From positions 278,904 through 342,903 of the forward strand of contig JAJVDF010000498.1 of NCBI GenBank assembly GCA_022410635.1: a DNA stretch of 64,000 nucleotides, given 5' to 3'. Of this stretch, positions 4,536 through 61,909 are shown in pieces. The notes under the pieces are model-generated. The model was not told the DNA's origin. It did not search any database and was given only the letters and a program-made list of their open reading frames with translations. A program made the position numbers and the translations under genes. Origin of the DNA: Tretioscincus oriximinensis (Eukaryota; Chordata; Lepidosauria; Squamata; Gymnophthalmidae). Position 1 is the stretch's first letter, and the number at the start of each line of letters is the position of its first letter.

Positions 4536-4632
4536 TTAACAAGGGGATCTTGTAGCATTTTAGAGACTAATAAGAAATGGGATAGGCAGCATGACCTTTC
4601 GTAGAAAAGTCTACTTCTTCAGATGCAGGGAC
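4536..4632 (-). mobile_element. Penelope-like/hammerhead-bearing repeat, copy 1
   Basis: Read on the minus strand, the fragment starts with CTGAAGAAGTAGA, a short complementary stem, and GAAA. It then runs through the shared TTAGTCTCTAAAATGCTACAAG segment. The same order of blocks recurs at six other loci in the window. Assignment to Penelope-like elements is inferred from the ribozyme-like core, the inverted pairing in other copies and the 12-bp target duplication at 31.1 kb. Confidence 0.6.
4595..4622 (-). ncRNA. Hammerhead-ribozyme-like core (decayed)
   Basis: On the minus strand the order is CUGAAGA, then A, then stem GUAGA / loop CUUU / stem UCUAC, then GAAA. This fits the hammerhead plan of CUGANGA, helix II and GAAA. 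Two departures weaken it. There is one extra A between the core and helix II, and the expected NUH cleavage triplet after helix III is not intact. It is probably inactive as it stands. Confidence 0.4.
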
Positions 4633-5888
4633 ACAACTGTAAAGCACAGACTATATGTAGCAAATGTTCATTGGTCAGTAAGGAAATGGGTTTAATGTTT
4701 GTCTGCATCTTACCTATATGGTACCTTGAAGGCTACAAATCTCAGTTCTGTGAGTTTGAACACTCTTAAAATCCACTTAAATATATTCAAGAGGAAATCT
4801 AATTCAAACTTATTTGAAAATTCCTTGAACAAATGATTGATGTAAGAGCGTGCAATCCTTTTTATTGTTCCTCTTTAGACTGTGGCCTAATTATTCCTAT
4901 CAGGAAAAACTAAAAGTCAATCAGAGTTGGCTGCTATTACCACATGGATATCAAATGAACCCAAATGCACTACTAATACATACACCTGATGTTTTTGATG
5001 CACAATGCCCTAGTCTACAATGAAGTGGCTTTTAACTTTCTGGATATGCGACTCCATGATGTACAATACCTCCATCTAATTTATTCATCTGCATTAAATG
5101 CATCGCTACCTCATGGTAGCAATTATGTATATCGTGACAAATCAATCATATGCATGTTCACCATATGTTGAACAAAATTAAATCTTTTGCCAGTACTAAT
5201 TATGGATGTGCCCTATTTCTTAAACACCAAAATGTGGTCCAATTACTTTATCTCTTTCTAGGCAGTTCAAAACTAGGAGACACTTCATTATCTATATCAC
5301 AAGCATTCTAGGATCACCAATGATATGTTTGCATCCACTTGATCTTTTTCATTATTTTTTTACTTTAATATTCAAGTATATAAATTACTTTGCATGTAGG
5401 AAGGATTTGTTGATGTAGGTATTAAGGAACTTCTGCATAGAACAGTAACATTTCATTTTAATCTAAATTTAAGCACTTCAATGTACAAACGATTATCTTA
5501 GATCCTGTCAGAATCAGGCTAAAAGTAATGGGGCCAGATGACTGAATAAATAAATATGTAAATTTTATAAGGTTGCTTTTTTGCCTAATGTAGTATAATA
5601 AATTATTTTGATTTTTGATGATATTTTGCGCAAATAAAGTAATTTATTATGGCTTTCTTCTCTGAATACTTTTGTGATACCTTGAATAAGGCTGGTTTAA
5701 TTTGGCAGAGAATGAAATTTATACTTACATTCAAAGAATGAGATTTTATGTATTGTTTTAAGAGCAGCAAAAGAAATAAATAGTCCTTGGAATTTTCAGC
5801 ATTTACTGGTTCAACATTGGGCATCCCTGATTTACCTTATTATCAAGATTTCAGTAGAAATTATTTAAGTTGTATGCAGACACAGGTT
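4633..5888. other. AT-rich DNA, nothing recognised
   Basis: No coding signature, repeat family or RNA gene recognised. Confidence 0.4.
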
Positions 5889-6495
5889 CAGTATTTCAGA
5901 TTTTCTGTTATTGTGGTTTTTTAAGCTTAAAGAGGAGACTTCTAAGGTTACAGGAAGCGCTACATGTAAGGCTCTCATATGACATTTGCTGTTTGTTGCA
6001 TGGGATCAACATACAGGGATCAGGGGTGAGAGTCCCAAGCCTAGTCCCCCCAAAAATCTTAGCAGCTTGAAGATGGGCGCAAAGCTACCCTCCTGTATGA
6101 CAGATCTATGGGTGTAAGGTCATCACAATGTGCTCTTTCCCATTCTCTTCACAAGTGCTGAGGTAGAACACTTTTTTCAGAGGATTTGTCTAATCCTTGG
6201 CTTGAAAAGAGAATGGGAAAGAGTACGCCTTGATCACTACACATAGAGGATCTCCCAAGAAAGAGGAGAAAACTGAGCTGATCCTCAAGCTTTTGCTGTA
6301 ACCCAGGACAGGACAATGAGGCTTCGGTGGGCTGAGCTTCAGGATTCATGCCTCTGTTTTCCTGTGTTTGTGCTTGTAAGAGACAGCAAATGTTGCATGA
6401 GAGCCTTATGTATGGATAAACAGTGTTCCCTCTAAAATCAAAATGTTTCCTTGTTAAGCTTAAAAACCTGCAATAGCAGAAAATCCGAAATATTG
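5889..6495. repeat. About 600-bp element with long inverted ends
   Basis: About 125 bp at the left (from 5889) is an imperfect reverse complement of about 125 bp at the right (to 6495). Both ends read inward as CA(G/A)TATTTC(A/G)GATTTTC, and both contain AAGGCTCTCAT and CATTTGCTGT blocks. A second, perfect 17-bp inverted repeat lies inside (6133-6149 with 6207-6223). The structure is that of a non-autonomous foldback DNA transposon. I could not find a convincing target duplication. Confidence 0.65.
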
Positions 6496-6990
6496 AAATG
6501 TGTCAATCTTATTGGTTACTTTTTTGACAGTGCTCCTGAAGGGAAACTATTTATCTGGAACCTACAATATCACTTTCATCTTAATGAAATTTGATTTACT
6601 GGGGATTAAAGTGGTTGGCACCAAAGTGGTTCTTTCAAGTGGAGAGTTGCTTCCACTTCTCATGGTAGCAATTCCAAAAGTCAATGTGCTCAGAACTAAT
6701 TTTGAAGTTATTTTTAGATCATGATTTAACCAGAATGATCTTGTGACCACCCATTTTTATTGCATGACAAACTTCTTAAGTGTGTGAATTGTAAGTTAGG
6801 GAGGTGTATTTTTTTAAAAAAAGGAGATTAAATCTCTCAATTTCTTTGCTGTGTAATGTGTCTAAAGTCCTTTCTGAACTAGGTAGTACGGTCTCTCCAC
6901 ACTGAATGGTGCTATGGAATAGGATAGTGATGTTGGATACAATCAAACATGCATAAACGGGTATTTCCTTGGACAGGTTTTCCATTCTAT
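6496..6990. other. AT-rich DNA, nothing recognised
   Basis: No recognisable element or gene. Confidence 0.35.
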
Positions 6991-7362
6991 ACTACTTTGG
7001 TTATACCACACTTAGAATACCATGTTCAATTCTGGGCACCCCATTTTTAAAAGGACATTGATAAAATGGAGCAAGTTCAAAAGGAGCGAATCCATGGATC
7101 AAACGGAAAGTAAACTTGCCTCTAAAGTGCAGGAAATAGAACATGCGGATTGGGCCATAGATTAGATATCAGGGGAAAAAATACTGTTTCTGACAGTAAA
7201 GGTGTTAAACCAGTGGAATAGTTTGGAATAGGAAGTCATGAATTCTTTTTCACTGGAAGTCTCCAAAGGTTGGACAGCCTTCTGTCTGGGATGGGTTAGT
7301 GAATCTTGTGTTGACCTGGAGGTGGACCCCATTGCAGCCCCTTCCAATCTATGATTCTATGA
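6991..7362 (+). mobile_element. CR1-clade LINE, 3' end
   Basis: A decayed CR1 C-terminus is followed by the conserved tail: CACTGGAAGTCTCCAAAGG, CTGTCTGGGATGGGTTAGTG, CCCCTTCCAATC. It ends in the diagnostic octamer-type repeat (CTATGATTCTATGA). CR1 copies typically end in this repeat instead of poly(A). The copy is strongly 5'-truncated. Confidence 0.9.
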
Positions 7363-7964
7363 TAAGTGGAGGTGAGGTAACCATATAGTTTTGCTTGTGC
7401 TGACTATCAACATTCAGAATATCATAACTTTTAAGATGTCCCTTTCTTTAATCTGGGTTAGACAGGAATCTCCATAATAAAAAAAAGGTAGGGTTTCTTA
7501 CTGATCGGCCAATCAGTGGAAGGGATTCTTGAAGTAAGGGAAGGTTGCCTGACATGAATGCAACGTTTCAGTGTGACAAAATAAGAACAGATTTTCAGTT
7601 GTAATTGCTTGGAAGACTTCTTTGTTCCTAAAGTAACACTTGTTCCTAAAGAGATAATTCTAAAAATCTGAGTCTGATCACACCCAATATATCAGACCAT
7701 AGACAGCATGCATCCATGGACAAATATCTGGTACCATTTTTGCTGAACATCTGGAAGCAGCACCAGATGTGTGTCATTTCTGGGCAATTATCCATGAACA
7801 CCTTGGTTGGCAACTTCAAAAATGCTCTTATTGCAGATCTGTAGTAGCCCAACCCAATATGGTGTGAGATAAACTATATTTAAGGTACAAGTAATCCGAA
7901 TAAATTATTTTCCTTCTGTGTAACAGAAATGTATGATAAATAAATGAAAGTATCTTGATGTAAA
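7363..7964. other. AT-rich DNA, nothing recognised
   Basis: No recognisable element or gene. Confidence 0.35.
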
Positions 7965-8131
7965 TCCAGCAAGGGGGAGTTGCAGGAATTGATAAGAAAA
8001 TGATAGGTAGCATGAGTTAACTTGTCTACAAAAGCTCATGCCGTCTACCTTTTTCTTGTTAGACTCTAAAGTGCTATAGGTTTAACTTGTTGGAGGTTTC
8101 TGGACCCAGACCAACATGGCTATTCTCTTGA
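7965..8131. mobile_element. Penelope-like/hammerhead-bearing repeat, copy 2 (inverted pair)
   Basis: A minus-orientation fragment (TCCAGCAAGG, about 7965-8018) is followed directly by a plus-orientation fragment. The plus fragment runs CTTGTCTACAAAAGCTCATG, TTAGACTCTAAAGTGCTA, CAGACCAACATGGCTATTCT. The inverted head-to-head arrangement also occurs at 9.6 and 31.1 kb. The GAAA of the ribozyme-like core is mutated to AAAA. Confidence 0.6.
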
Positions 8132-9610
8132 TATATTGATGTAGTTTTTCTATTCCTAATTATGCTTTAATTTTCAGATGACATGTTTCGTTTCAAAAAA
8201 GCCACTCCACCTAGAATAATAATGTTATAATCTCATAATTTTTAAGAATACATATTTTATACATGTATTTTAAGAATACATACATACATGAAAGATTTGA
8301 TCTTTTGCTATTTAACAGGACACTAAGCAAATATTAGAACAGTATCTTTCTCTATTTTGAGCCACTTAAATTTTGCCTCCTGGTCTATTTAAGCCTAAAG
8401 AAACACATTTACTGTAGTACCATTAAGTGGCTTTATCAATGAATGTTGAATTTTAAAACTTTTTAAAATAAGTAGTAATGAGCTGATTTTTTGTAACGCA
8501 AATGCATAATACAGGTGTTGGTAATAATGATCATCCGTTCTCATTACACTTTTGCACCTTATTATGTTGCTATGTCATCCTGTGCTTTTAAAAAAGGAAA
8601 GCCCCGAACCATTCTGTAACGTTTCCCCCCATCTTTCTTACAATAACAACTATACCTTCCGAATCCCATTAAAACCTAAGAAGGAATTACTCCTTAAGGA
8701 GTACAAGTGGGCATATATGCATGAAATAGAAGATATGATTTAATATATTTTACTTCTAGAAGTTAAATTTGCCACTTGCCTGGATGCAGCTTTGGGAATT
8801 TTTCTTAATGAAGAAGGTTTTTGGATTTCAAATTAGTCTACCATTCAAAATCCCATCTGTAAATGTTATTTCTCAAAATTTCAACTCTCTAGGCATTGAC
8901 TTTACTTTCTTATTGTCTTCATGTTTTGAGTTTAACCTTATATAATTATTTTAATCAATGGGGCCCTAAAGTACTTTTAAATGAGGCAGCCCTTTTTCAG
9001 CGTTCATTTGTATTGAGTGAAATTAACTGCACTTGAACAACTTTTAAAAACTATGCCTCGAGAGTTTCCAACTATTAAATATTTTTCTATTATGAGGACT
9101 CAGAATTGTTCACTGCAGAGAATAAAGTACCACTTTTGCATACATTACACAAACATTTTTATGCTTCACAAAACCACAATAAATTTTCTTGCTGATTACT
9201 TGTGTAATCTAAGGATATCCTGCTGTTTTATCAAGAGTCTTATTAATTTCATTTAAGTATTAAAATTAGCACCTGAGGAGAACAGTTTTGTGATTTCCTA
9301 ACTTTTATAATAATTAGTAATAACTTACCTCATTTACCATGTAACACTCTGATTTTTATCTCTCAATCAGTTAATTATTAATTTATGATGGGGAAAAAGC
9401 CATTTTTAGAGCTTCCAAAATAGGATATTTAGTAAGAGCTGCTGGGTAGAAATTTGTTGTTTGTTCAGCTGAGTCTGAACATTTTTGACCCTATGGATCT
9501 TTGTTCTCCACAGCCAAGAAATATCTCTCCAGATTCATGTTTTTTTTCCTTCCATGAGATCTATTCATCTCATCCTCTGCTATTCCCTTGGTAAACTTCA
9601 AAGAAATTTT
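8132..9610. other. AT-rich DNA, nothing recognised
   Basis: Long AT-rich stretch without a recognisable family. The open frames at 8552-8743 and 9017-9256 have no recognisable motif. Confidence 0.4.
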
Positions 9611-9806
9611 TGTGTTAGTCTGGGTTTAGAAAATCTAGCAAAGGGGTCCTATGACACCTTAGAGGCAAAGAAGAAAAAAGCAGGCTGCATTTACTTTCAT
9701 AGCACTATTTCCAGCATATGAAATGGTAGACTGTCTACGAAAGCTCCTGTCTACCTTTTTCTAAGTAGCTAAGGTGTATGAGATTTTCTGAACTCAGACT
9801 AACAGG
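9611..9806. mobile_element. Penelope-like/hammerhead-bearing repeat, copy 3 (inverted pair)
   Basis: The left half is in minus orientation. Its terminal block TGTGTTAGTCTGGG is the reverse complement of the family's CAGACTAACACGG end. The right half is in plus orientation, with GTAGACTGTCTACGAAAGC and a final CAGACTAACAGG. The element is therefore bounded at both sides by the same terminus, pointing outward. Confidence 0.65.
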
Positions 9807-9870
9807 ATAACGGGAAGCACTGAATTGAGTGGAAATTCATCAGCCTCTCCAGGACTTTTGCCCAGATTAG

Positions 9871-9957
9871 CATTTGAAGAAGTAGACTTGTCTATGAAAG
9901 TTCATGCTGCCTATCTTTTTTCTTGCTAGTCTCTATAATACTAGAAGAGCTCCTTGC
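9871..9957 (+). mobile_element. Penelope-like/hammerhead-bearing repeat, copy 4
   Basis: A single plus-orientation fragment: TTGAAGAAGTAGACTTGTCT then ATGAAAG, followed by TTCTTGCTAGTCTCTATAA. The core is TUGAAGA (first C lost), and helix II survives as a 5-bp stem. It lies about 65 bp after copy 3. Confidence 0.6.
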
Positions 9958-10418
9958 TATATTCCATTTTACTTTTATTTCTGATCATTTCTAGTATCAG
10001 CAGTGTACCCTGGCTTCTCATTACATAGCAAAAGTATTTGAGCTTCAGTTTCAATATTTATCCTTCCAATTGGACAGACAGGTTGGTTTTCTTTAGTATC
10101 AACTGATTTGATATCCTTCTAGTTCAAAAGTCTTATCCAGCATCACGAATAGTCTACCTTATCATCCAAATCATATCGCCATACAGTATTATTTCAAGGT
10201 GATCTCCCTGCTTTCTAATGCACTATTCAGGTTTGCATTACTTTCCTCCCAAGGAGAAAACATGATTTAATTTCATGATTGCAGTCATTGTCTGCAGTGA
10301 TCTTTGAGCCCAAGAAAATTATATTATATCTGACACTGCTTCAATTTATTCCCTCTCTTTTGTCTAGAAGTGATGGGAATGGTTGCAATGATGCTTTCAA
10401 AGACTGAGCTTCAAATAT
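9958..10418. other. AT-rich DNA, nothing recognised
   Basis: No recognisable element or gene. Confidence 0.35.
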
Positions 10419-10566
10419 AGGGTTCTCATCTAAAATCCAGAGTAGAACTTTGCATCTTTAGTGGGTATGAAAAAGGGATTTTCTCCTGAGATTCTGTAGC
10501 TATTAGACCATCTCTTGTGTAACTATTAAAAGCTCAAAGCTCTATGATGATTTTAGGTGGGACCCT
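10419..10566. repeat. Small MITE, AGGGTTCTCATCTAAAAT-type ends
   Basis: The left end AGGGTTCTCATCTAAAATCC pairs with the right end ATGATTTTAGGTGGGACCCT. This is the same family as 2837-2974. Confidence 0.6.
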
Positions 10567-10699
10567 AGCTTCAAGACATTTGGTTTTTTACTACCAAAGG
10601 GTAGAGATTATAATTCACAAACAAAACATGAGTCAACAATTTGAAGCAGTTGCAAAAAAGGAAAACGCAGTCCTGGGTTGTATTAAATTAGCATAGAAT

Positions 10700-18494: not shown

Positions 18495-18803
18495 GCGGTA
18501 CAGATAGCTCAGTCGCTAAGGAATTCGTCTCTCGCCTAGGAGATGGGGTTTCGAAGTCCTGTGTTGGACGTGGGGAGGGGTGAGCACCTTCCACTAGATT
18601 GTAGCTCTAGCCAACCCAGCTTTTTGGAAGCAAGAATTGCAAGAAATTGCAGCTGACTGCAAGTAGAAACATGGGAAACACCATAGCCTGGTGGGGAAGA
18701 TAAAATGTGAACCTTTGGGCAAAATACCCTTGTAAGCAGCTTTGAGTCCCTTTGAAAGGTGAGAAAAAGCGGGATATAAGAACCCAGTTTTTCTTCTTCT
18801 TCC
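18495..18803 (+). mobile_element. tRNA-derived SINE with L2-like tail
   Basis: The head has pol III boxes of a tRNA: TAGCTCAGTCGCTAAGG (A-box region, 18505) and GGTTTCGAAGTCC (B-box region, 18547). The middle is shared with copies at 43192-43491 and 54501-54803. The tail (GCTTTGAGTCCCTTTGAAAG, CGGGATATAAGAACCCAG) resembles L2 3' ends, suggesting mobilisation by L2. It ends in TTC repeats. Confidence 0.85.
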
Positions 18804-19850: not shown

Positions 19851-20375
19851 CTGAGCTGCTGAGCCTGAGGAGACACCCCAAGAGCCCTGCCAGGAGTGTG
19901 GGACTTTTCCACCTGCCCAGGGTGAGAAACTGGGCTGCCCACCTCCTGATGGACTAATCCTCCACCAAGGTGCCACCATACGATATCGGGCTCCGGAATA
20001 TCTGTGCGTATGTGTTGTGTGGTTGTGTGCATGTGTCTGTGAGAGAGTGCTTTTTATATACATTTTTAATATTGTGTTTTAAAACTGTTTTTAAAGTGCT
20101 TCTGTAATTTAATACTGTTTTAAGATATTTATCTTTTTTTTTCCCCCACTGGGAATAATGTGTTACCAAGGACAGGTATTAGGAGGGGGAGAACAGGTAC
20201 AGGGGGCTGTCATACATGTGGTGATGGGCAGGGGAGATATGGCGTTGGGAGGCAGAAGAGACGGATCACCAGAAGGGGTGACAGATGCGTCAAGGCTGTC
20301 ATCCCTTCTGTTCTGCCTCCCAATCAGCAGAATTTGGGGATACCTGTCAACTGGCCCACTGCTCTGGTGGTGCTG

Positions 20376-20940
20376 CTGTTAAATGCCAGGTCAGTCCAGA
20401 ATAAAACATCTATCATTCATGATTTAATCTTGGATGAAGGGACTGACCTGGCATGTATTACTGAGACCTGGGTGGACGAACTTGGTGGGCCTAATCTTAC
20501 CCAGCTCTGTCCCCCAGGTTATTCAGTGTAGCACTGTTCTATACCAGTGGGAAGGAGAGGGGGTGTTGCTGTGGTCCACAAATCATCCATCTCTCTCACC
20601 AGGCAGCCAAATCGCTCTGTTTCTGAATTTGAGCGATCGTTCCTGTTGTTGGGCAATAAAAATAGAATAGGAATGCTGCTGGTGTACCGGTCACCCCGCT
20701 GCCCAGCAGCATCCCTAGCTGAGTTGGCAGAGGTGGTCTCTGATGTGGTGTTGGAGGCTCCTAGCACTGTGGTGCTGGGGGACTTCAACATCCATGCGGA
20801 GGCTATCCTCACCGGTCTTACTCAGTTCTTCATGGACTCCACGGCAACCATGGGGCTATCTCAATGTGTTACTGGCCCAACTCAGAGAAGGACATATTCT
20901 TGATCTGGTTTTTTCCACAGAATGAACTGGTGATGCTCCA
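20376..20940 (+). pseudogene. L2 endonuclease domain (broken)
   Basis: The APE-type endonuclease is recognised by LLLNARSVQNKTSIIHDL, DLACITETWV, then GGVAVVHKSS, VYRSPRCPA, VVLGDFNIHAE and LDLVFST in order. In active elements this domain nicks target DNA to prime reverse transcription. There is an in-frame stop TAG at 20529-20531, where family members read through. A frameshift near 20890 moves the LDLVFST block into another frame. No functional protein can be made. Confidence 0.8.
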
Positions 20941-21564
20941 TTGATAGGAGGGTTGGCAGTAAGCCCGTTGCCATGGATGGATCATTCCCTGGTGAGATTT
21001 GGATTTACAGTGACTGCTTCCCCCTGCAAGGATGAGAGACCCATTCAGATGGTCCACCCTTGAAGACTTATGGAATCTGAGCGATTCCTGAATGCTCTGG
21101 GGGATCTCCTGGTTGGCATGGATGGCGTTCCTGTCGAGGCTTTGGTCTCTCTCTGGAATCGGGAGTTGACCTGAGCTATCGACCCAATAACTCAGCATAT
21201 CTGTGGAGTCCGTAGAGCACCCTGGTATTCTGGGGAGTTAAGGATGATGAAACAGAAAGGCCGACGGCTGGAGCGCAGGTGGCGCAAATCCCAGCAAGAG
21301 TCTGATTGAACACGGGTTAGAGCACATTATCGTGTCTACCAGGTGGCAGCAAAAAGGAATTATTTCTTTGTTATCATTGCGTACTTAAGTAGCCATCCAG
21401 CAGAGATCTTTCGAGTGGTGAATGGCCTGATAAGATATAGCCTAGGATAGCAAGGGCAAAGGCCATCCAATAGCTGCTGTGACNAATTTGCAAGGCACTT
21501 TGAGAACAAAGTCACTCAGATTCATGAGAGATTAGATACCACACTTGTAAGTAGCCCAGAGGAC

Positions 21565-23128
21565 GTGTCCAGAGAACCATCTGGTTCAGTTATCTTGGAT
21601 CAGTTTCAATTATTGCGGCCTGATGATGTGGACAAGCTGTTTGTTGGGGTTCGGCCAACGTCATGCTCTCTGGATTCTTGCCCCTCCTGGCTGATAAAAG
21701 CAAGTCAGCAGCGTATGACCAGGTGGTTCCAGGGAGTAGTGAACGCTTCCTTGAGGGATGCAATGATCCCGCCGGGTCTTAAAGAGGCGGTGGTGCGTCC
21801 TATCCTTAAAAAGCCTTCCCTGGACCCAGAAGAGTTAAACAACAACTGCCTGACGGCCAACATATCCTTCCTGGGCAAAGTACTGGAGAGGGCTGTGGCT
21901 TTTCAGCTGCAGGCATGCTTGGAAGAAGCGAATTATCTAGACCCATTTCAATCTGGCTTCATGGCACAAAAACCGCCTTGGTCGCCCTGGCTGATGACCT
22001 ACTCCGGGAGAGGGATGGGGGCAATGCGACCCTGTTGTTTCTCCTGGACCTCTCAGCAGCTTTTGATACCATTAACCATGGTATCCTCTTGGAGAGACTA
22101 AGGAGTTTAGCAGTTGGTGGCACTGCATTGCAGTGGTTCCGCTCCTATCTCCAAGGTCGCTTCCAGAGAGTGTTGGTGGGGGAGTCTTACTCGACACCAT
22201 GGGAGCTCACTTGTGGGGTTCCTCAGGGGTCGATCTCTCCCCCATGCTGTTCAACATCTATATGAAGCCGCTGGGAAAGGTCATCAGGAGATTTGGAGTA
22301 AAGTGCCATCAAAATGCAGATGACACTCAGCTCTATCTCTCTGTTCCATCTGAATCAGGAGAGGTGGTTGAAGTGCTTGACAGGTTCCTGGAGGCAGTGA
22401 TGGGCTGGATGGGGGCCAATAAATTGAAACTGAATCCAGACAAGATGGAGGTGCTGTGTGGTGGGGCATCCTGAGTTCGTGAAGTGGGAAGGCGCCCTGT
22501 CCTTGGTAGGGTAGAATTACCCTATAAGGGACGGGTGCGAAATCTTGGGGTGTTTTTGGAGGCAGTGGCCAGGAGTGCCTACTTCCAGTTACGTCTGGTT
22601 CGCCAGTTACATCCACTTCTGAGCAGGGATGATCTAGCCACAGTAATCCATGCTCTGGTAACTTCCAGATTGGACTACTGTAATGCGCTCTATATGGGGT
22701 TGCCCTTTAAAAAGGTTTAGAAGCTGCAGCTGGTGCAGAATGCAGCAGCTAGACTGCTGGCCGGAACAGCTGGCCGGACATACATCACACTGGTCTTGAA
22801 AGAGCTGCATTGGTTGCCCATCCGCTACTGAGTCCAATTCAAGGTGCTGACTTTAACTTATAAAGCCCTAAATAACTTGGCCCCCAAATATCTAAAGGAA
22901 CGCCTTCTCCCATACCAACCTGCTTGTCCCTTAAGATCTGCAGGAGAGGCCCTCCTGGTTGTACCACCCCTTTCAACAGCCAGTGGAGTGGNAACCCNGG
23001 GNAGGGCCTTCTCAGTNGTTNCCCCTCGTCTTTGGAATAGTCTCCCCCTTGAGGTGCATCTGTTATCATCGTTGTATTCTTTTAGAAGGTCCTTGAAGAC
23101 GCACCTCTTTTACCTGGCCTTTGGCTGA
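21565..23128 (+). pseudogene. L2 reverse transcriptase and C-terminal region (broken)
   Basis: The order of motifs is conserved: LKEAVVRPILKKPSLDPEEL, FLGKVLERAV, TALVALADDLLRE, LDLSAAFDTINH (motif A), [12 protein letters not shown] (here TCGVPQGS), [10 protein letters not shown], then NADDTQLYL. The catalytic YADD box has become NADD at about 22315-22326. Frameshifts lie near 21960 and 22230. From about 22230 one frame runs through TSRLDYCNALYMGLP, LVQNAAARLLAG and LKELHWLPIRY to PRLWNSLPLEV, with stops at 22472, 22718 and about 22828. It is a decayed L2 polyprotein. Confidence 0.85.
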
Positions 23129-29789: not shown

Positions 29790-29821
<32 letters not shown>

Positions 29822-29843
29822 TGTATGTATGTATGTATGTATG

Positions 29844-29877
<34 letters not shown>

Positions 29878-30195
29878 TGTATGTATGTATGTATGTATTT
29901 ATATACGTACTTATTTATTTATTTATAATAAATATAAATTGGGAAAGGGAAACCTCAAAGGAAGAGTTAAAGAAGAGCATCCATGTATTCCATGGTAATG
30001 CTAGACACACATCAAGGGGGGGAACTATATCATAGTCTGGGGGCCATGGGTTCCCACTCCTTTTGATGCAGAAAGAGGGGGTACAACCAGATGTGTCAAA
30101 GAGGAAATATTAGCAAGTGCTGTTGTCCTTACAAGCTGCTTCTGCTGAAATTTCCTCTTTGACAGATTCGTTAAAGATGCTAAAGTCTTGTAATG
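29756..30195. repeat. Diverged MITE of the GTTACCAGA family, with inserted microsatellite
   Basis: AGGGTTACCAGAAAGAAGC at 29756 looks like a left end of the family at 2837 and 10419. 30087-30195 carries internal blocks (TGTCAAAGAGGAAATATTAG and TGAAATTTCCTCTTTGACAG) that are partly inverted relative to each other. The (TATG)n array lies between. The boundaries are uncertain. Confidence 0.35.
29789..29898. repeat. (TATG)n microsatellite, about 110 bp
   Basis: Tandem TATG/GTAT units with one TATA interruption around 29846. The unit length of four makes Met-Tyr-Val-Cys repeats in every forward frame, which explains two spurious open frames here. Confidence 0.95.
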
Positions 30196-31027: not shown

Positions 31028-31139
31028 TTTTTTCTATAAATCAGGATGTTGTATATAAATATTTTAAATAAATAAATAAAATTCAAAAGCAGTAGCTAAT
31101 TCACCATAGGCTCTTTCTGCACTGGCCTTATTCTGGATA

Positions 31140-31351
31140 GTCCAGCAAAGGAGCTAGCAGCACTTTGAGACTAACTTGAGAAAAGTGGTTGGCATAAGCT
31201 TTCGTAGACAGGTCTACTTCTTCAGATGCATCTGAAGAAGTAGACCTGTCTACGAAAGCTTATGCCAACCACTTTTCTCAAGTTAGTCTCAAAGTGCTGC
31301 TAGCTCCTTTGCTGGACTTTCTGCTAGACTAACACGGCTATTTCTCTGAAA
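31140..31351. mobile_element. Penelope-like/hammerhead-bearing repeat, copy 5, with 12-bp target duplication
   Basis: 31139-31318 is a perfect palindrome, two 90-base arms with no spacer. Each arm is one unit of the family. A plus-orientation terminus (CTAGACTAACACGGCTATTT) follows to 31351. The insertion is bounded by the perfect direct repeat TTATTCTGGATA at 31128-31139 and 31352-31363. A 12-bp duplication does not fit common cut-and-paste transposons. It fits target-primed retroelements, including Penelope-like elements. Confidence 0.7.
31232..31259 (+). ncRNA. Hammerhead-ribozyme-like core (best copy)
   Basis: CUGAAGA, one A, stem GUAGAC / loop CU / stem GUCUAC, then GAAA and a GC-UUAU-GC mini-helix III ending near 31266. 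Core residues CUGANGA and GAAA are intact. The base expected to be U before the cleavage position is C here, so cleavage is doubtful. The mirror copy lies at 31198-31225 on the minus strand. Confidence 0.4.
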
Positions 31352-31453
31352 TTATTCTGGATAATAATGGTGCAGACTATGTCAAGTCTTACCAAGTACT
31401 TCTTGTAGNCTACAGTAATATGTGGATGGTAGGCCCAGTGCAGAAAAGACGCA

Positions 31454-43191: not shown

Positions 43192-43491
43192 GAAGAAGAA
43201 CTGGGTTCTTATACCCCACTTTTCTCACCTTTCAAAGGGACTCAAAGCAGCTTACAAGGGTATTTTTGCCCGAAGGCTTACATTCTATCTTCCCCATCAG
43301 GCTCTGGTGGTTCCCCACGTATCTACTTGCAGTCAGTTGCAATTTCTTGCAATTCATGCTTTCGAATAGCTGGGCTGGCTAGAGCTACAGGCTAGTGGAA
43401 GGTGCTCACCCCTCCCCACGTCCCACATAGGGCTTCAAAACCCATCTCCCAGCTGAGAGGCGAATTCCTAAGAGACTGAGCTATCCGTGCC
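43192..43491 (-). mobile_element. tRNA-derived SINE, intact, 13-bp target duplication
   Basis: Same family as 18495-18803 and 54501-54803, in reverse. Perfect direct repeats TGTAGAAGATGAA flank it (43179-43191 and 43492-43504). The duplication length and the L2-like tail indicate insertion by LINE machinery. The head carries the A and B box regions (CTCAGTCTCTTAGGAATTCG and TTTTGAAGCCC on the minus strand). Confidence 0.92.
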
Positions 43492-48530: not shown

Positions 48531-49507
48531 TTTCTCATAATAACAGTAGAACACTTCAGTTTGAGGGAGAAGGACAAAATTTGCCTTTGAGGATTGTAAC
48601 TGAAAGGTTCAATCAAACTTGTGAATGTTAATTTAAACCTTGATTTAGAGATAAAGAGAACCTAGTAAAAAAAAAGAGCAACATAATGGCATTACAGAAT
48701 GGGAAATGAATGTTAAATGACTGAGAAAATTTGACTGACAAACATGTGGAGCATTAATAAAAGACAAATGAATCTAAACTAAGATGTATTATCTTAGGGA
48801 AAAGGCAAAGATAGAACAAAGAGCCAATGGCCCTTACACTGTGTACACAGCACACGTCATCATTCAAACTCCATGTGGACCATATTAAAGTTGGGGTGAG
48901 CATCGATCACTTGCAAAAGCAAATGTTAATTAACTGCTTCTTTAGTTTGGGGAATTCTCTCTCTTCCAGCTGAATACACATCCATTGCTATGAATCTTCT
49001 TGAATATTTTAATTTATGTCATCATATGAAAAAAATATCCNGCATTGGCCTGATATTGAAACAACAACAATAATTATATTGCCTTTCCTCCCCCACAAAA
49101 AATGAGTGAAAAAATATATGCCAAAACAAATCAAAAGTTATTTATCAGAAATAATAACCACATATTGTAGGGGTGTAAGGACCACATTGCATCACTCAGG
49201 ATGAGCCACAAAATACACCCTGCCACACTCACATAGCCATCTAGCAGCCCCCAAGTCTGCTTACTTGGCACAGCACACATGTAAAAGGGCTCATTTTGGT
49301 TCATGCCAAGAACCGGAGAAAATCTCTTTAATTGTCACATCATAGCAGATGCGGTCAGAGACATTTGAAGACTAAGGAGGACAGGAGAGGTCCATTTCAC
49401 CCTTTAACCACATCCTTCGTACAGGGTAATGGTCTCTCCCATACACCTGATGCCATAAACTCAAAAGAATACAGATACCACTTATATAGTTTTTTTTNNA
49501 AAAAATG
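48531..49507. other. AT-rich DNA, nothing recognised
   Basis: No recognisable element or gene. Confidence 0.4.
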
Positions 49508-49684
49508 TCCAGCAAAGGGGCTAATAGCACTTAGAGACTAACAGGAGAAATTGGTGGCATAAGCTTTTGTAGACCCATCTACTTCTTCAGAGGATGAGGG
49601 ACTAATGTCCATGCCAGGTATTTATAGAAAACTGTGTATGGGAAATGACAAATGCTACTGGACTAACACAGCTGTTTCTCTGAA
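49508..49684. mobile_element. Penelope-like/hammerhead-bearing repeat, copy 6
   Basis: A minus-orientation unit (TCCAGCAAAGGGGCTAATAG through CATCTACTTCTTCAG) is followed, after about 75 bp, by a plus-orientation terminus (CTGGACTAACACAGCTGTTT). The stem survives, but the GAAA is AAAA. Confidence 0.6.
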
Positions 49685-50324: not shown

Positions 50325-50676
50325 AGCCACTGAGCACTCTGCAGGGAGTTTGCTGACAGCACGCATACATTTGGCGATACCCACCTTCAGTACTTGCTTT
50401 GTTTTGGCATGGGAGTCTCCATGTTAGGGGAACTCCTCCTTCCTTTCCCCCATCATGGCTCTATCGGTGCCGCCCATTCTCCCATCAGCCAAGGGGAATG
50501 AAGGAGGAGCCATTCCATTGGCTGCTGGGAGAGTGGGCAGCACCAATATCCCCATGTTGGGGGAAAGGAAGGCGGAGTTTCCCTAACGTGGCGACTCCCA
50601 TGTTGAAATGGAGCGAGTACTGAAGGTGGGAATTGCTGAATTAACTGTATGCGCACCATCTGGAGCGCTCAGCGGC
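50325..50676. repeat. 352-bp GC-rich foldback element
   Basis: The left arm (about 50325-50482) and right arm (about 50522-50676) are imperfect reverse complements over their whole length. Examples are CCCACCTTCAGTACTTGC with GCGAGTACTGAAGGTGGG, and CTCCTTCCTTTCCCCC with GGGGGAAAGGAAGGCGGAG. A 40-bp loop separates them. A partial relative is at 2155-2260. It is a non-autonomous foldback transposon of unknown superfamily. Confidence 0.75.
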
Positions 50677-54500: not shown

Positions 54501-54803
54501 GGCACGGATAGCTCAGTCACTTAGGAATTCGTCTCTCGTCTGGGAGATGTGGTTTCGAAGCCCTATGTGGGATGTGGAGAGGGATGAACACCTTCCGCTA
54601 GCCTGTAGCTTTAGCCAACCCAGCTATTCGAAAGCATGAATTGCAAGAAATTGCAACTGACTGCAAGTAGATACATGGGAACCACCAGAGCCTGGTGGGG
54701 AAGATAGAATGTGAGCCTTCGGGCAAAATACCCTTGTAAGCCGCTTTGAGTCCCTTTGAAAGGTGAGAAAAGTGGGGTATAAGAACCCAGTTCTTCTTCT
54801 TCA
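54501..54803 (+). mobile_element. tRNA-derived SINE with L2-like tail
   Basis: Full-length copy: A-box region TAGCTCAGTCACTTAGG, B-box region GGTTTCGAAGCCC, shared body, L2-like tail GCTTTGAGTCCCTTTGAAAG and TTC end. No clear target duplication. It is the plus-strand partner of 43192-43491. Confidence 0.9.
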
Positions 54804-56040
54804 TAGTCTGGATCAGAATTTCTAGAAAAGGGAGTATTTTAGTGCCTTAGAAACGAAAACAAAAAAGATTGGCAGCACAAGTTTTCTTTGCTATCCTACC
54901 ATGACATCAAGGCTTCTTCCACATGTAATGGCATGACTGCAGCAATCATAGTTCTCTAAAAGATCCACATTTCAGATTTTCCTTTGAGTTCTTCTGTTCC
55001 AATTTTATGACAGAGCAATGCTCCCTCCCTCTTGCTTTCATGGCATAAAACACCCTGGATTTTCCTATTGAAAAAGCAAGCAAAAAACAGTTTTTTAAAT
55101 TAAAAACCTCTAGTACTAGGGCACTGAACAGCAGGATTTTTTCTTGTTCTCTTAAAAAATCCTACAAGTATTTCTTTAGTGCAGATGGCTGTGAGGGGAG
55201 GTGAGAAATTGGAGAAGAGATAGCAGCAAGCAGCCATTTCTAAAACCATGCATTACTCTAGGACTAAGGGTGAAAAGTTGGGGAAGAGAAAACAGCCAAT
55301 GATAGGAGAGAAACAGCATTTCCTTGACAGGTTTTCCTTTCCATTTCACTACCAATCCAGGGAAAAGAAAAGAAAACATCTGGACCCACAACAACAAGAA
55401 CTTAAGTGCTTTATTCCATGAGAGTGAGACATAAGGCAACAAACAGTTGTGTGGATGCACCCCAAGTCCATTTTTTCAGATGCAAAGGAAAAACTCTGGA
55501 ATTCCTTATGTGAATGTTTCTTCCAAGCTAAAATAAGGAAACAGATCAAGGGTAAGAGATATATCTGTTAAGTGCTTTAAACAGCAAAGTAGCAGAGTCA
55601 AGCAGTTTTGCCAACAGGAACAAACACACACAAACAATGCAGAGATTCTTTTCACAAAGGAAGTCTTTTCTTTATTCTTCAGTTACAGCAACACACATCT
55701 GGTGTGCTTTGACTCTCACACATCTCATGATTGTCTCATGACTACAAGCTCATGATAATATTCACCTGTGGGTCATGAGAACCTTTCTCAGGTTCTTAAC
55801 TGAGATATATGTTATACATTTTAAATCTCAAACCTTAACAAGATAACCTCTTATTGTACTGAATCATCTGCCTGTGGAAGATGCAATGTGGCCAACCTTA
55901 AGTGACAGCCAGAGATTGAATAGAGTTTGAATACTCTCTTGTACTTGCTCTTGGTGGAGTGGAACTAGTAGGAAGAGAAATAAATGTGTCTGGATGATAC
56001 TATGACCAGTTAGACATCTTTATGATGAAACTTGGCCAAT
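54804..56040. other. No gene; possible Harbinger-like element
   Basis: AAGGCTTCTTCCACATGTAA (54910) and TTGTGTGGATGCACCCC (55447) could be the ends of a Harbinger-like MITE of about 550 bp, but the match is loose. The rest is unrecognised. Confidence 0.3.
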
Positions 56041-56396
56041 ATGAGAAAATACCAATGAAGGAAAGGCTCTGTGTGTTGTGGAAGATACTAGGCATTTCCT
56101 CCTGGAATGTTCCTTATATGCCAAACTCAGGGAGAGGTACCTAGCCCCCCTACTAGGTAAATGGCAATCAATGGACAATAAGATTTTACTCTATAGGATG
56201 CTACANGGTGTTGATAAAACTATTACAACCCAAGTGGCTATATTTATAATTAAAGCCATGTTTTAGTAATTGAATAGGTTATTAATAGCTTTGGCTCATA
56301 GCCTCTTGTTTGGCCTGTTTGCTGGTTGGCATTAACTTGTTTTAACTGTGATGTGGTTTAAAGACTTATCATTAAACATATTTGATTTGATTTGAT
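56041..56396 (+). pseudogene. Non-LTR retrotransposon C-terminus
   Basis: The frame at 56078-56266 reads EDTRHFLLECSLYAKLRERY, LAPLLGKW, then TITTQVAIFIIKAMF. The H-x4-C with a preceding cysteine-rich context (LCVLWKIL upstream in another frame) is typical of the C-terminal zinc-knuckle region of non-LTR retrotransposons. The tail ends in ATTTGATTTGATTTGAT (to 56396), a LINE-like simple repeat end. The clade is uncertain. Confidence 0.5.
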
Positions 56397-57059
56397 ACTG
56401 GATCCAGTATGTTGACGTTCAGGTGGAGGTGTGATGATGTGAGGAAGAGTAAACTTCAACCACTATAAAAACCCAGTAAGTCATCTAGATAGTTCAGGGA
56501 ATTATACATATTTAAAGAAGACTATTAAATACTAGTGTGCAAGCAGACATATATATATGATCTTGGTTAGCGAAGTTGCCAGAAGCATATTATCTCTTGT
56601 GTCACATCTATGAATAGAAGGACGAATCTTGTAATAAACCTTCCAGCCTTTTATCAGCAAAGTAAGTGGTAAAACTTTACTTTCAGCATAGAATACAGCA
56701 TAGGGCTTTCCCCCCCATCAAAGCAAGAGGTAGGGAGGGGATTCCCTTGATTGAAGACTTATTTCGAAGCCTTCCAATTATGAAAGTCAATATATCTAGA
56801 ATTTAAAGAGATTCTAAATCTCTTTTAAAATCAGGGAAGTAGAATATATGTAGAATTTACACCTCAGTGTTGGCATGACTGTCTCATGGGGCTGACTATC
56901 TACATATGTGGAATACCTGCCAGGAGATCCACTTATTCTGGAGATGGATTTTTCAAGAAATTAATATCATATTAAATATTAATATCCCCAAATCCAACTG
57001 TATTTTGATCAGGAATTGAATAAAAACTCTGAATCTTCATTTTGATATTGTGTATGTTT
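56397..57059. other. AT-rich DNA, nothing recognised
   Basis: No recognisable element or gene. Confidence 0.35.
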
Positions 57060-57410
57060 TGAAGCAAAGCATCAGGGATGGACACAAAGCATAAAAAATA
57101 TATTGCAATTGAACTAAAAATAGAGAAAAGAATATGGGCAAATCCCCATGGCAGGGTGTGCCATGCTTTTTTAAAAAATGTGTTTAGCACTCACATCATC
57201 TTACCTTGCCTTCCAGGCCGCTGCATCTTTTTTCCTAGCATCTTTTCTCCATTGAATGATGAGTCCCATAAGGCATTGCTGTGCTTTCCTAACTATAATC
57301 CCTAGCATTCTCTGCAATCGTGCCTACTATTCCCAAGCATTCTCTGCAAGCCGAGAGCCAATGGGGACATTAATCTCACCCTGAAGTTTTGCGAGATTAA
57401 TGTCCCCATG
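57060..57410 (-). repeat. Dispersed repeat family G, reverse copy, with perfect hairpin
   Basis: CATTGCTGTGCTTTCCTAAC and AGCATTCTCTGC, then GAGAGCCAATG, match the reverse complement of 45055-45140. At its right edge a 17-bp perfect inverted repeat (57361-57377 with 57393-57409, ATGGGGACATTAATCTC) encloses a 15-nt loop. Confidence 0.5.
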
Positions 57411-58445
57411 CAAGTCTTTATTTGGATGTTAGAAAATGTCCAATGCTGAAATATTTGTGTCTTCATGAGTCCACATCCAAAGCACAGTATATCATGTGAA
57501 GTGATTGGGCCTAGAACGTAGTATCTATAACACAGGCTAGGGTACTGATACAATTTAATATACACTGTTTTCTAATTTTTCATGCAGACAGTATTTTTAC
57601 ATTCATATATGTTTCTCTCTTATCAGGTTAGCAAACCTAAACTAAACTCATAAAACAGATTTTTTTTTGTTTCGTAATTGTCATAACTTCTCTGGGGTTG
57701 CGGAATGTTCGTGGCAATTTTTTAATTACAACAATCCCATGCTTGTCTGCCAGATGGTAAAATTCCAGTACTTGAAAGGTCCAATAAGTCAACTTGATAT
57801 TTCAGAGATCTATGAATATTTAAACAAGACCGTCAAAAGCTAGTGTGCAAGTGATGGCAATTCAATTTCAGCCTGTGCTATCCTGACATGAATATGATTT
57901 CTTAATCTGATTCTTAATCTCTGTTTCTTAATCTGATTCTTAAGAAGTAACTAAACTGATGATATAATGATGTTGAAGAAAGAGGTCTAGTAGCCTTTAA
58001 GGAAACTCATTCCTCATCTTTAAGAGCATCCTTATCTTTAAAAGCATCAGTATCCCATTTGGTGACAAAGTATTGTTTGTTCAGTTGTAGACATGATTTG
58101 CAGTAGCAAGAGGTATATGTCAAACCTCCATCATATTATATTTTCTCTAGGTTTTAATATTGCCCAGCTTGCTTAAAACAGATGTTTGCTGCTATAGCTA
58201 ATCTGGATAAAGCAAATGAAGACTTACTAATGCAGACTTAGCATTGTAAGGGAATGAAAAGTTTTTATCTCTGAGATGAGGGTGGATTAGGTTATTTATT
58301 ACTTTACCAAAATGGAGTGTGGTTTTTTTTAAAGGGAAAACAGTAATATCAAAGCTGGTGATATAAGTCCAGTTTAAAACATATTTCTTTTAATCTGTTC
58401 AAATCACATGGATCTCTCAGAACCTCAGATCATTGTATTCCTTAT
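57411..58445. other. AT-rich DNA, nothing recognised
   Basis: No recognisable element or gene. Confidence 0.4.
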
Positions 58446-58706
58446 ATATTTATTTATTATTTATTTGTACTTGTATCCCGCCCTATACCTGAAGGTCTTA
58501 GGGCGGCCAACCATAGGGCGGTGCCCATAGCTTTTGTTGCTTTCTCCACAACAGACACCCTGTGGAGTAGGTAGGGCTGAGAGAGTTCAAAGAACTGTGA
58601 CTGGCCCAAGGTCACCCAGCTGGCTTTTGTGGAGGAGTGGGGAATCGAACTGGGAGGCTACCAGGTACGAGTCCAACACTCAACCACTGCACCAAACTGG
58701 CATGGC
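58446..58706 (-). mobile_element. CORE-SINE/MIR-like element, full length
   Basis: On the minus strand: tRNA head TTTGGTGCAGTGGTTGAGTG, B box AGTTCGATTCCCC, and the CORE block CAGCTGGGTGACCTTGGGCC followed by AGTCACAGTTC. The L2-type tail is GGCCGCCCTAAGACCTTCAG, then GGCGGGATACAAGTAC and AAATAAATAA. The CORE segment is the shared hallmark of MIR-like SINEs of vertebrates. Confidence 0.9.
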
Positions 58707-58840
58707 ACATTGTAGTAGGAATTCACACAGAGGTGTGATCATGGCATAACACAGTTTCTTTCTTGTCCACAGATACAACTTTTCATATAAAGAATGCTTG
58801 GGATATTTTAATTATTGCTAAGCACATCTTCATACCAGCC

Positions 58841-59106
58841 AGAGTAATTTTAAGACAGGATTAGACAAGTTCATGGAAGCCAAGGGTATAAATAGCTACT
58901 AGGATGGATGCCTTGATATGGCTTCTGAGATGGACCTACTGGCAGAATTCATAAAATAACATTTGCAGGGAGTCAAGAACAAGCAAAATTTTTGCCTTCT
59001 TCTATTTGAGACTGCCCAGGTGCAATTGGTGGGCCACTGTGAGAGACAGAATGCTGGACTAGATGGTCTCTAGCCTGATTTAGCAGGGCTCTCCTTATGT
59101 TCTTAA
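58841..59106 (+). mobile_element. CR1-clade (L3-like) LINE, 3' end
   Basis: TTTTAAGACAGGATTAGACA, then AGGATGGATGCCTTG, GACTGCCCAGGTGCAATTGG, GAATGCTGGACTAGATGG and CTCTCCTTATGTTCTTA. Same terminus as 26878-27455. Confidence 0.85.
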
Positions 59107-59862
59107 TATTTAATAGATGTGGGAGGATTATATTTATATGAATCTAATACAGATTCCTGTTATTAAGGCTATAGCCTGAGATATGATGGTCTGAATTTTC
59201 ACTGGTGCTATACACCTTAACTTGAAATTTATTGATTAGTTTATGTTTCTCTGTACTTTTTATTATTTTTATTTGAATACTATTGACCAGCAGATATTTA
59301 ATGGCCAGAAAGAGAAAGTCTGAAGTGTCACCATTCAGAAAGCATTTTATTTGAGACAATTAATGGTAATGATACTGCTGTTAGCAGTATAAAATCTTTG
59401 ATTGCTTATTTGTATACATCTCTTCTCACTGGCCATAGTACGTTTCAAATTACAAAATCAGTGAATCACTTTATGTCCGTTCAGCATTATAAAATTCCCA
59501 CTCCAAGGTGCTTATGTTTTAACAAAGCCCATAAGATCAGAACTAATATTTTCATTAGGCAACAAAATCAGAAAATGATAATGCTGTTTAAAACACATAC
59601 GTTATTATTGAATTGTTAATTAGCAATTGTTGATAGATCACACAGACTAGTTGAAAGACTGTAGATAACCTCCAGCTTGTGTAATAGCTTTGCTTCTAAG
59701 GGGTATAAAGGATCATTAATTTATCCACTCATGTGGTTGAGGAAGACACATCCCATTACTCATGTTTTTGGCCAAAGAAGACACTTTTCTTTGCTACCAG
59801 CNTCTGCAATGTTTTTAATTGATTCAAATTTCTATGCATTTGGATTTTTTATTGTTGTCTAA
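59107..59862. other. AT-rich DNA, nothing recognised
   Basis: No recognisable element or gene. Confidence 0.35.
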
Positions 59863-60224
59863 GGCTACGTGCACATGATGTTTTTCTACTTCATTCGGAG
59901 CGCAATCAGGATGTCTTGGGCACAAGTGCTAAGAGTTTTTTCAGTAGTCAACCCAAAANAAATGCCTTTTCTCCCAGAATAAACTATTGCTCAGATATTT
60001 GGGCATTGTTTGGGAGAACCTCTGTATTCTTGCAACTGTATGCATGTGCACAGATTAGATGCAAGATGATAAAGCAATCGATAACACAACAGTTGTTTCT
60101 ATTGGCTGTTGTGAGTAAAAAAATATATCTTGGGCTGGAATTATACATGTTTGGTGTGCACGGACACGTGGTTGCTATATTAAGGATTAAAGCATTGTTT
60201 TTAAATCATGGTGTTCACCTTGCC
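59863..60224. repeat. PIF/Harbinger-type MITE, copy 2
   Basis: Starts GGCTACGTGCACATGATG and ends GTGTTCACCTTGCC. It is flanked by TAA on both sides (59860-59862 and 60225-60227). It shares AATAAACTATTGCTCAGATA, ATTGGCTGTTGTGAGTA and TGTTTGGTGTGCACGGACA with copy 1 at 27590. Confidence 0.75.
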
Positions 60225-61820
60225 TAAATGTAAATAATAAAATAAGTCATTAGACTTGCCCACAATCATAAAAGAGATTAAAGCAGTGATCACACCTAAC
60301 TTTTAACCCAATTCTGAGTGAGATAACCTAACTGCAAAGTGGTGAGCTGTTTTCTTTCAACATTCTCTTTCAGAAAACCCACTCTCATGTCCCTGACATG
60401 GTCTGGTTTATGTATTATGTATTGACTACTATAGTTGTTATTATTATATATTAATTATGTATTATATGATTTCTGTGCATTGGAGCAGAAGGAAAGAAAG
60501 TCAATAAGTCAGGGCCATATTTGGGCAAAATATAGCTACCGGTAATAGTAAGAAGATAATAATATTTTGTATTGGTTTTATTATTATAAAACCCAAAGTA
60601 GCTGAAGGAAGAGGGGGAATAAAATAAATAAATAAAATAAATAAATAAGCAAATAAATTACACCCCATCGGCAAAAATGCAGCCAAAATACAGGCCTGAA
60701 GTTATAGACGGGAAAAATGTTTGCAACCCAAAAGAATTTAGTTTTATGGTATCTCTTTCCTTTTTGAAAGTCATTTTTTAAAAAATAAAAATAGTAGTAA
60801 TTTTTTAAAAAAAAAATCCAAATAAGGTGGAATAAGTAAGTAATGTCCAGGTGCAGACTCTGAAAAACCTAAAGCTGTGATCCTATTTCAATTCCTCAAA
60901 GACTAGGTCCGGGATTTGTCTCAACATAGATATGCAAAGGATTGTGCTGTTTAGCACTTAGCAACATCCTGACAAACACATTTAATTTATGTTTACAAGC
61001 ATTTGCTGTTGTTACTGAGGAGGGAGTTATAAAGTTATAGCTCCGATTACAGTCAACCTAGAGTATGATTAACATGCAGGCATCCATTTGTTAATGATCG
61101 ATTGGCATATTCATCCCAGGGAAAATTGAATCAATGAAATAAACAATCTATAAGCTTAAGTTCTCCATGTATAATTGAAGACTGATTTATGTCTGGACTA
61201 GGTTCTGTGGGCAGTATTTAACAAAACTTAAATCAATATAAAGTCCTTCCATTTCTATAGCTTAAAGTTCAGCCATGACTTATTTAAATTACAATTACTA
61301 GGTGATTAACATACTATAAACTGAAAGACTATGATGATAAACGCTGACCAAAGTGAACAATACTAAAATATCCTGTGTTTATACTGGGAGAAGCATCACT
61401 TTTCTTTCTCTTGGTAAAGCAATAATTTTCTTGATGAGTCTTCAAAAAAAGAGAAATCATTTCTAAAGAGTGAATATGTGTAGTACTTGATTTTTACTTC
61501 TAACTTCTTTTTTTTCCTTAAGTGTACAAGCTTATTTCACTGACTTCTTAAAATAAACAAATAAAAGAAAATAATTGGGGATGAGCCACTAGATGTAGTG
61601 ATGTTGATGAAGTGCACATATGTTAATGGGCTGTAATGGCTGTTACAACTATGTGTCAGCTTTCTTTTCTCCAACTTTTTCTACTCTTCTTATTGATAAA
61701 AGGATTATCTCAGGTTTATGACCTACTTTTTCAAAGTCACTTTTGCCATGTCAGCTGAAGCAAATATTGATGCTCACTCAGAAATCCTGACCCTTTTTGA
61801 ACACTTCTATTTTATATTTT
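60225..61820. other. No gene; AAATA low-complexity run
   Basis: An (AAATA/AAAT)n run lies at 60617-60660, possibly an L2 tail. Otherwise unrecognised AT-rich DNA. Confidence 0.4.
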
Positions 61821-61909
61821 CTAGCAAGGGGTCTTGTAGTACCTTAGAGATTAACAATAAAAAATTGGTAGTGTGAACTTTTGTAGACTAAGTCTACTTC
61901 TTTTGATAC
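61821..61909 (-). mobile_element. Penelope-like/hammerhead-bearing repeat, copy 7
   Basis: The minus-orientation unit ends CAAGGGGTCTTGTAGTACCT. Its stem is GTAGACTTAGTCTAC with AAAA in place of GAAA. A single unit without an inverted partner. Confidence 0.6.

Follow-up and report, generated by a model that had tools for sequence, protein, structure and literature searches.

Terminal repeats with a hammerhead-type fold, probably of a Penelope-like retrotransposon, in the squamate Tretioscincus oriximinensis

We analysed a stretch of 64,000 nucleotides from Tretioscincus oriximinensis (contig JAJVDF010000498.1, positions 278,904 to 342,903; hereafter the window), in which a family of short dispersed repeat units carries a hammerhead-like motif. 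These units are very probably insertions of the pseudo-long terminal repeat (pLTR) of a Penelope-like retrotransposon, each pLTR bearing a hammerhead-type fold. By sequence identity, this element is apparently abundant and was apparently active recently. The predicted hammerhead is of a minimal, type-I-like form, with a helix I of 4–6 bp, CUGAAGA, helix II, GAAA, AGCU replacing helix III, and the cleavage triplet CUU or CUC. Such a feature is of a known kind; its host element is new and has an unusually clear anatomy.

In this young and abundant family, the putative promoter, the hammerhead, the start of reverse transcription and the insertion ends all fall within approximately 150 bases, and the order of events can therefore be read from genomic copies. 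The pLTR reading also explains a perfect palindrome of 180 bp, as well as short dispersed repeats whose origin would otherwise be obscure. In the portion of PMC7761336 available, the activity and role of Penelope hammerheads are described as still a mystery.

Repeat units and the parent element

Using a profile iterated on the window, we identified 11 units at eight loci (E 9.8e-23 to 1.8e-6), including head-to-head inverted pairs at three of them (8.0, 9.7 and 31.2 kb). A preliminary description, made from the letters of the window, had recognized a seven-locus repeat family; the family is real, but the locus at 54.9 kb had been overlooked and the head-to-head pairing had gone unmentioned. 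A hammerhead descriptor (CTGANGA, 0–1 base, a stem of at least 5 bp, GAAA and a short hairpin) gave three matches in the window, all within the repeat family, versus a mean of 0.07, and never more than 1, across 60 whole-window dinucleotide shuffles. Because all three belong to one family, they count as one event.

The source genome searched was a 1.54-Gb assembly, from which the loci with L-numbers were fetched. The search with the 4.6-kb unit gave 41 matches from the 40 candidates scored out of 2451 at first look; 40 places were fetched, one being the window copy itself. At locus L044, pieces of a reading frame for reverse transcriptase (RT) and a GIY-YIG endonuclease lie between a same-strand pLTR (−) at 4608 and an inverted tailed pLTR (+) at 6350. 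This element has a 15-bp target duplication that contains a single mismatch, and three additional bases adjoin its tailed end. A Pfam scan of the decayed L044 pieces gave no match. Relatives were found in Phrynocephalus, turtles and others; among five homologues scanned, two carried RVT_1 and GIY-YIG and three carried GIY-YIG, and an alignment of eight protein sequences had IG-T and K-V--HF among its invariant residues. The search for PDB relatives by sequence gave none at E 0.01. The last approximately 28 residues of the L044 frame match repeats resembling short interspersed nuclear elements (SINEs) at three places in the window, indicating that the end of the frame reads into a SINE-like insert. 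A SINE-like family is located at 18497–18767, 43310–43443 and 54501–54771 of the window, and part of it also lies inside the L044 Penelope element.

A genome search with the L044 piece gave 144 scored places from 70,434 first-look candidates, the latter figure not being a copy number; these were L044 itself and 143 places at 83–87% identity. We fetched the best 30 of the 144, to which all counts of endonuclease loci refer. The unit lay downstream of the GIY-YIG endonuclease, on the same strand, in all 30 loci, at a distance of 180–228 nt in 29 and of 440 nt in L048 (which is L044 again). An inverted unit was also present upstream in 14 loci, and the exact 38-nt hammerhead block in 26. The open frame of L073 contains both RVT_1 (1.2e-10) and GIY-YIG (5.5e-6), over the curated cut-off in each case; the longest open frame listed has 905 aa, with RVT_1 and GIY-YIG within the 733-aa part scanned. 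Hence an open reading frame (ORF) with RT and GIY-YIG joined to the repeat, direct and inverted pLTRs, an optional tail (34 nt, within 30–40 bp) and a target duplication were all found. A Penelope origin had been suspected in the preliminary description, which named an RT plus GIY-YIG ORF joined to the repeat as the thing to look for. Such an ORF is present, in L073 and by linkage at the 30 fetched loci, and together with the target duplication of L044 it bears out the suspicion. Separately, opposite-strand pairs of Penelope endonuclease matches approximately 0.1–1.6 kb apart were noted (G000 C819, C113, C13, C491 and C224), consistent with head-to-head elements.

These linkages bear directly on a different origin, in which the unit would be an ordinary palindromic repeat resembling a SINE or a miniature inverted-repeat transposable element, with a hammerhead resemblance arising by chance. 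A short perfect palindrome, many copies and covariation no greater than in shuffles would all suit such a repeat. However, the origin part of this explanation is ruled out by the GIY-YIG frame linked at 30 of 30 loci, the descriptor is matched just 0.07 times per shuffled window, and the tail and the two 3′ ends (see below) agree with Penelope anatomy as published in the accessible part of PMC3846280. The explanation by chance was rejected, and we consider it hardly credible.

The insertion at 31.2 kb has 212 bp (31140–31351) and consists of two head-to-head pLTRs with a 34-nt tail on one arm. Its palindrome is perfect, with zero spacer and 90-nt arms joined at 31228/31229, whereas the next longest zero-spacer palindrome of the window has 14-nt arms. 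The right copy bears 34 extra bases, terminating CTCTGAAA, and the tailed and untailed ends lie 112 nt and 78 nt, respectively, from where helix II starts. The tailed 124-nt unit is identical (124/124) to the units of the Penelope loci L049, L050, L054, L063 and L070, and differs by 1–2 bases from the units at thirteen other endonuclease loci, indicating that the 31.2-kb insertion is recent.

Both ends of the units follow a pattern. Two 3′ ends were detected: among 26 exact blocks, 11 are tailed and 15 end at CTTTGCTGGAC or at most 4 bases short of its end. At the 5′ side, 8 of the 34 scored monomers continue far into the upstream part. Of the other 26, 19 keep 0–5 bases before C3 of the core, seven of them keeping five (AGCAT or near). 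In the upstream part, a TATA-like sequence lies 29–32 nt ahead of AGCAT (31 and 32 nt in the two L044 pLTRs, and 29 nt in each of two copies from the other subfamily). Neighbouring units less than 60 nt apart, counted across the window and 27 loci, are head-to-head in nine of nine pairs, and pairs 60–400 nt apart are same-strand in two cases and head-to-head in two. The palindrome junction CTTCAGATGCATCTGAAG was found at 31.2 kb and in L072. Target duplications are present at the two best-preserved elements, 31.2 kb and L044, and were not recovered in most old copies.

The short units might also be retrozymes, small non-autonomous circular-RNA elements with hammerheads, sharing only the motif with Penelope. 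The size of the units (approximately 125–212 nt) and their type-I-like hammerhead fit this explanation, as does the coexistence of retrozymes of approximately 170–400 nt with Penelope elements, stated in the available part of PMC7229834. In contrast, tandem copies are described for retrozymes, whereas all nine close pairs here are head-to-head, and the sequence of the 31.2-kb unit recurs unchanged at Penelope loci. On these two grounds a retrozyme origin was rejected as very unlikely.

Hammerhead-type fold

The order of CUGAAGA, helix II and GAAA is that of a minimal hammerhead, as the preliminary description had stated. Its further statement that all loci share CUGAAGA and a GC-UUAU-GC hairpin holds for some copies only. 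Of the window units, those at 4.6 and 49.6 kb and both arms at 31.2 kb are the only ones with exact CUGAAGA; the core reads UUGAAGA at 9.87 kb and CAAAAGA at 61.9 kb, and it is lost at 8.0 and 9.7 kb. Exact GC-UUAU-GC is confined to the 31.2- and 49.6-kb copies.

Helix I is formed between the bases preceding C3 (GCAU; in the other subfamily, CAGCAU) and the AUGC or AUGCUG that directly follows GAAAGCUU or GAAAGCUC, while helix III is reduced to the self-complementary AGCU. GC-UUAU-GC had been taken for helix III, but the AUGC that follows GAAAGCUU makes a better 3′ strand for helix I (GCAU/AUGC). The earlier assignment was rejected because these bases yield both helix I and an NUH triplet; covariation cannot separate the two readings. 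With AUGC in helix I, an NUH cleavage triplet, previously thought to be missing, is correctly placed. It was found in 50 of 61 units (CTC 30, TTC 9, CTT 6 and GTC 5), the 61 being those with an intact 5′ part from 39 loci and the window. The triplet directly follows GAAAG; it is GUC at 4.6 kb, and CUU both in the young element and in the 31.2- and 49.6-kb copies. A scheme with a CA/UG triplet, CpG decay and a dead hammerhead was dropped, since it was based on the wrong helix III.

The CUGANGA and GAAA core is exact in the young element (26 of the 30 endonuclease loci). For pairing in the family as a whole, 47 of 64 candidate segments were aligned without gaps and one duplicate was dropped, leaving 46 copies, in which helices I and II were paired in 80.7% of cells versus 16–49% when slid. 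The minimum free energy (MFE) structures of the 48-nt L052 segment (young element) and the 53-nt L034 segment consist of helices I and II and one isolated core pair.

Several observations weigh against the reading of the units as Penelope pLTRs with a hammerhead-type fold. The short-segment MFE includes the isolated core pair, and among five window copies folded as 91–140-nt fragments, none has the complete fold as its MFE. No helix III forms in the monomer; AGCU could pair between two molecules, but this pairing is absent from the predicted dimer, the two-molecule MFE being an extended duplex and not an AGCU-joined dimer. Covariation in the stems is low, as was already apparent from the window copies: it is not above shuffles, with 5 pairs changed on both sides versus a shuffled mean of 3.7, RNAalifold gives no consensus pairs, and the competing mini-hairpin of 2 bp likewise reaches 90% pairing. 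The additional A between A9 and helix II, also reported beforehand, is present in the consensus of the 46 aligned copies and in the young element. CTGANGA and GAAA are both kept in just 18 of the 61 mostly older units, as expected of decayed copies. A hammerhead covariance model had been proposed as a check, and the Rfam hammerhead families gave no match even at E 10. As for the element, no copy was found in which a direct 5′ pLTR leads into the ORF, and the 1.35 kb at and before the start of the longest open frame contain no unit. Exact direct repeats of at least 8 bp surround 4 of 39 elements versus 4% of random flank pairs, in a run whose boundaries also missed the 31.2-kb duplication. The clustering of 5′ ends was measured on copies picked by similarity to the whole unit, so that copies truncated further in were not sampled.

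Some of these observations would also suit Penelope pLTRs with a cleavage-dead hammerhead relic, retained as a protein-binding or RT-start structure, an explanation that shares the origin and differs in function. The extra A after A9, the lack of a monomer helix III and of an Rfam match, and covariation not beyond shuffles are consistent with such a relic, and in vitro insertion by Anolis Poseidon persists when the hammerhead is mutated (PMC11167929). On the other side, 26 of the 30 endonuclease loci have the core, the triplet and the two helices in exact form, although young copies would be alike anyway, and helix I and the triplet also hold in most older copies. We regard a dead relic as a serious possibility, somewhat short of even chances. 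We give cleavage by the hammerhead in cells about even odds.

Proposed course of transcription and insertion

Transcription would start at (C)AGCAT, approximately 31 nt past the putative TATA box, and the first 4–6 nt after this TATA-directed start would form the 5′ strand of helix I. The RT of the element would begin at the tail, an internal position of the transcript 112 nt beyond the first base of helix II, and would copy the short leader back to the 5′ end of the transcript. Two leader cDNAs, one per cut strand, could then join via a few complementary bases (GATGCATC), and the junction CTTCAGATGCATCTGAAG would be understandable as an overlap of complementary ends. The solo units could accordingly be reverse-transcribed 5′ leaders, as the TATA box approximately 31 nt before AGCAT suggests; we hold this as a plausible view that falls below even odds.

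The hammerhead would cut approximately 37 nt from the transcript start, probably aided by a second RNA or by a protein of the element. Insertion seems to use uncut RNA: since insertions extend up to the presumed start site, which lies upstream of the cleavage point, their templates were apparently uncut, in agreement with the Anolis result. With helix I at the transcript start, a cut after GCUU would remove the cap together with the leader of approximately 37 nt, and cleavage, if this is true, would switch the RNA from messenger to something else. The full scheme, in which the hammerhead occupies the extreme 5′ end of the transcript, uncut capped leaders are copied to give very small insertions starting at the transcription start, and the cDNA ends join into palindromes, is put forward as a tentative and rather doubtful proposal. 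If it is true, the solo units, the tail, the head-to-head arrangement and the GATGCATC junction that recurs at 31.2 kb and in L072 would all follow from one mechanism.

Window features and comparison with known systems

The coordinates of the units, and of the parts of the 31.2-kb insertion, are given in Table 1. The upstream pLTR part of the 4.6-kb copy is common to L006, L009, L012, L022, L027 and L039, and the 49.5-kb copy shows 82% identity to L052 (2353–2514) over 162 columns. The 8.0-kb pair is bordered by an 8-bp direct repeat, TTGATGTA, at 7955–7962 and 8136–8143, and no target duplication was found around the old 9.7-kb pair.

Table 1. Positions of pLTR units and their parts in the 64-kb window
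Feature	Position	Strand	Basis or remark
pLTR unit with tail, and upstream pLTR part	4506..4712 (tailed unit 4506–4628, upstream to ~4712)	−	nhmmer; profile unit 4626–4537
5′-truncated head-to-head pair, approximate outer limits	7963..8135 (8029–7965 (−) and tailed 8010–8127 (+))	.	profile unit 8015–8093 (+)
Old head-to-head pair, tail remnants on both	9603..9801 (9715–9603 (−) and 9712–9801 (+))	.	profile units 9705–9636 (−), 9714–9783 (+)
Untailed solo unit, start at AGCAT	9869..9959	+	profile unit 9870–9957
Left target-site duplication TTATTCTGGATA, 12 bp	31128..31139	.	exact direct repeat with 31352–31363
Left arm, inverted untailed pLTR unit	31140..31228	−	89/89 bases complementary to right arm; profile unit 31229–31140
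Right arm, pLTR unit with 34-nt tail (31318–31351); first base within palindrome centre	31228..31351	+	profile unit 31228–31317
Hammerhead block, overall	31228..31265	+	sequence and pairing; helices in MFE of identical block in L052
Helix I of block, 5′ strand GCAU and 3′ strand AUGC	31228–31231 and 31262–31265	+	
Core of block, CUGAAGA, extra A and GAAA	31232–31238, 31239 and 31254–31257	+	
Helix II of block	31240–31245 with 31248–31253	+	
GCUU of block	31258–31261	+	predicted cut after 31261
Right target-site duplication TTATTCTGGATA	31352..31363	.	exact repeat of left copy
Untailed solo unit and upstream pLTR containing TATAAATA (TATA)	49504..49660	−	profile unit 49592–49508
Decayed unit, hammerhead core lost	54804..54888	−	nhmmer E 3e-8; profile unit 54891–54826
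Untailed solo unit, core decayed to CAAAAGA	61819..61911	−	profile unit 61909–61820

Other repeats of the window include a fold-back inverted repeat at 50369–50641, with 127-nt arms that are 81% complementary and 19 nt apart, and a long TATG tandem repeat at 29790–29912. Broken frames resembling long interspersed nuclear elements (LINEs) lie mutually inverted at 20124–23128 (+) and 62567–63754 (−), the former with endonuclease and RT traces and the latter with RT-related homologues. The best relatives of the LINE-type RT piece at 62567–63268 are in Anolis, Pogona and Rhineura, and the window is squamate-like in this respect. Exact-pattern scans of viral and bacterial collections gave no match, and a search for exonised peptides gave no candidate.

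An extra A between A9 and helix II, as in the present units, also occurs in the (+) hammerhead of Chrysanthemum chlorotic mottle viroid. Minimal Penelope hammerheads are said to act as dimers, reportedly from work of Cervera and De la Pena in 2014 and Lunse et al. in 2017. In published work, an extra core nucleotide in a viroid hammerhead is associated with weak activity. As far as the accessible parts of PMC6155905 and PMC7761336 go, Penelope hammerheads are minimal, without a stable helix III, located within pLTRs and possibly active as dimers. The present units share the pLTR location and the lack of a stable helix III with them, and differ in the extra A after A9.

In Pen2a and Pen3a of the rotifer Adineta vaga, according to the available portion of PMC3846280, inverted pLTRs stand head-to-head with a 31-bp tail on one of them, target duplications are 8–10 bp, and palindromes are located at the pLTR 5′ end. 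The 31.2-kb locus resembles these elements in its inverted head-to-head pLTRs, the tail on one, the target duplication and the palindrome at the pLTR 5′ end. It is unlike them in that its two pLTRs, which have no ORF, make up a perfect palindrome, and in its hammerhead, a feature not mentioned in that portion of the source.

In the Poseidon element of Anolis carolinensis (PAc; Penelope/Poseidon clade), the ORF begins at stem II, an optional tail lies between two RT start points, and both DNA strands are cut and extended; its hammerhead cleaves in vitro only with protein, and insertion is independent of cleavage (PMC11167929). The present element shares with PAc the squamate host, the ORF with RT and GIY-YIG, the hammerhead of stems I and II only and the optional tail, a likeness drawn from the published description of PAc. 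The ORF of PAc starts at stem II, whereas all three frames from stem II here reach a stop before the tail end. PAc prefers 5′-ATT-3′, and the 31.2-kb duplication begins TTATTC. Ahead of the RT start, GTTAGTCT and AGACTAAC (31282–31333) are able to form an 8-bp stem. The MFE structure of the 31.2-kb unit includes this stem, which may correspond to the AC-rich stem loop in PAc. The RT start of PAc is located 111–118 bp into the ORF, that is, after the start of stem II (PMC11167929), and the corresponding distance in the present element is 112 nt.

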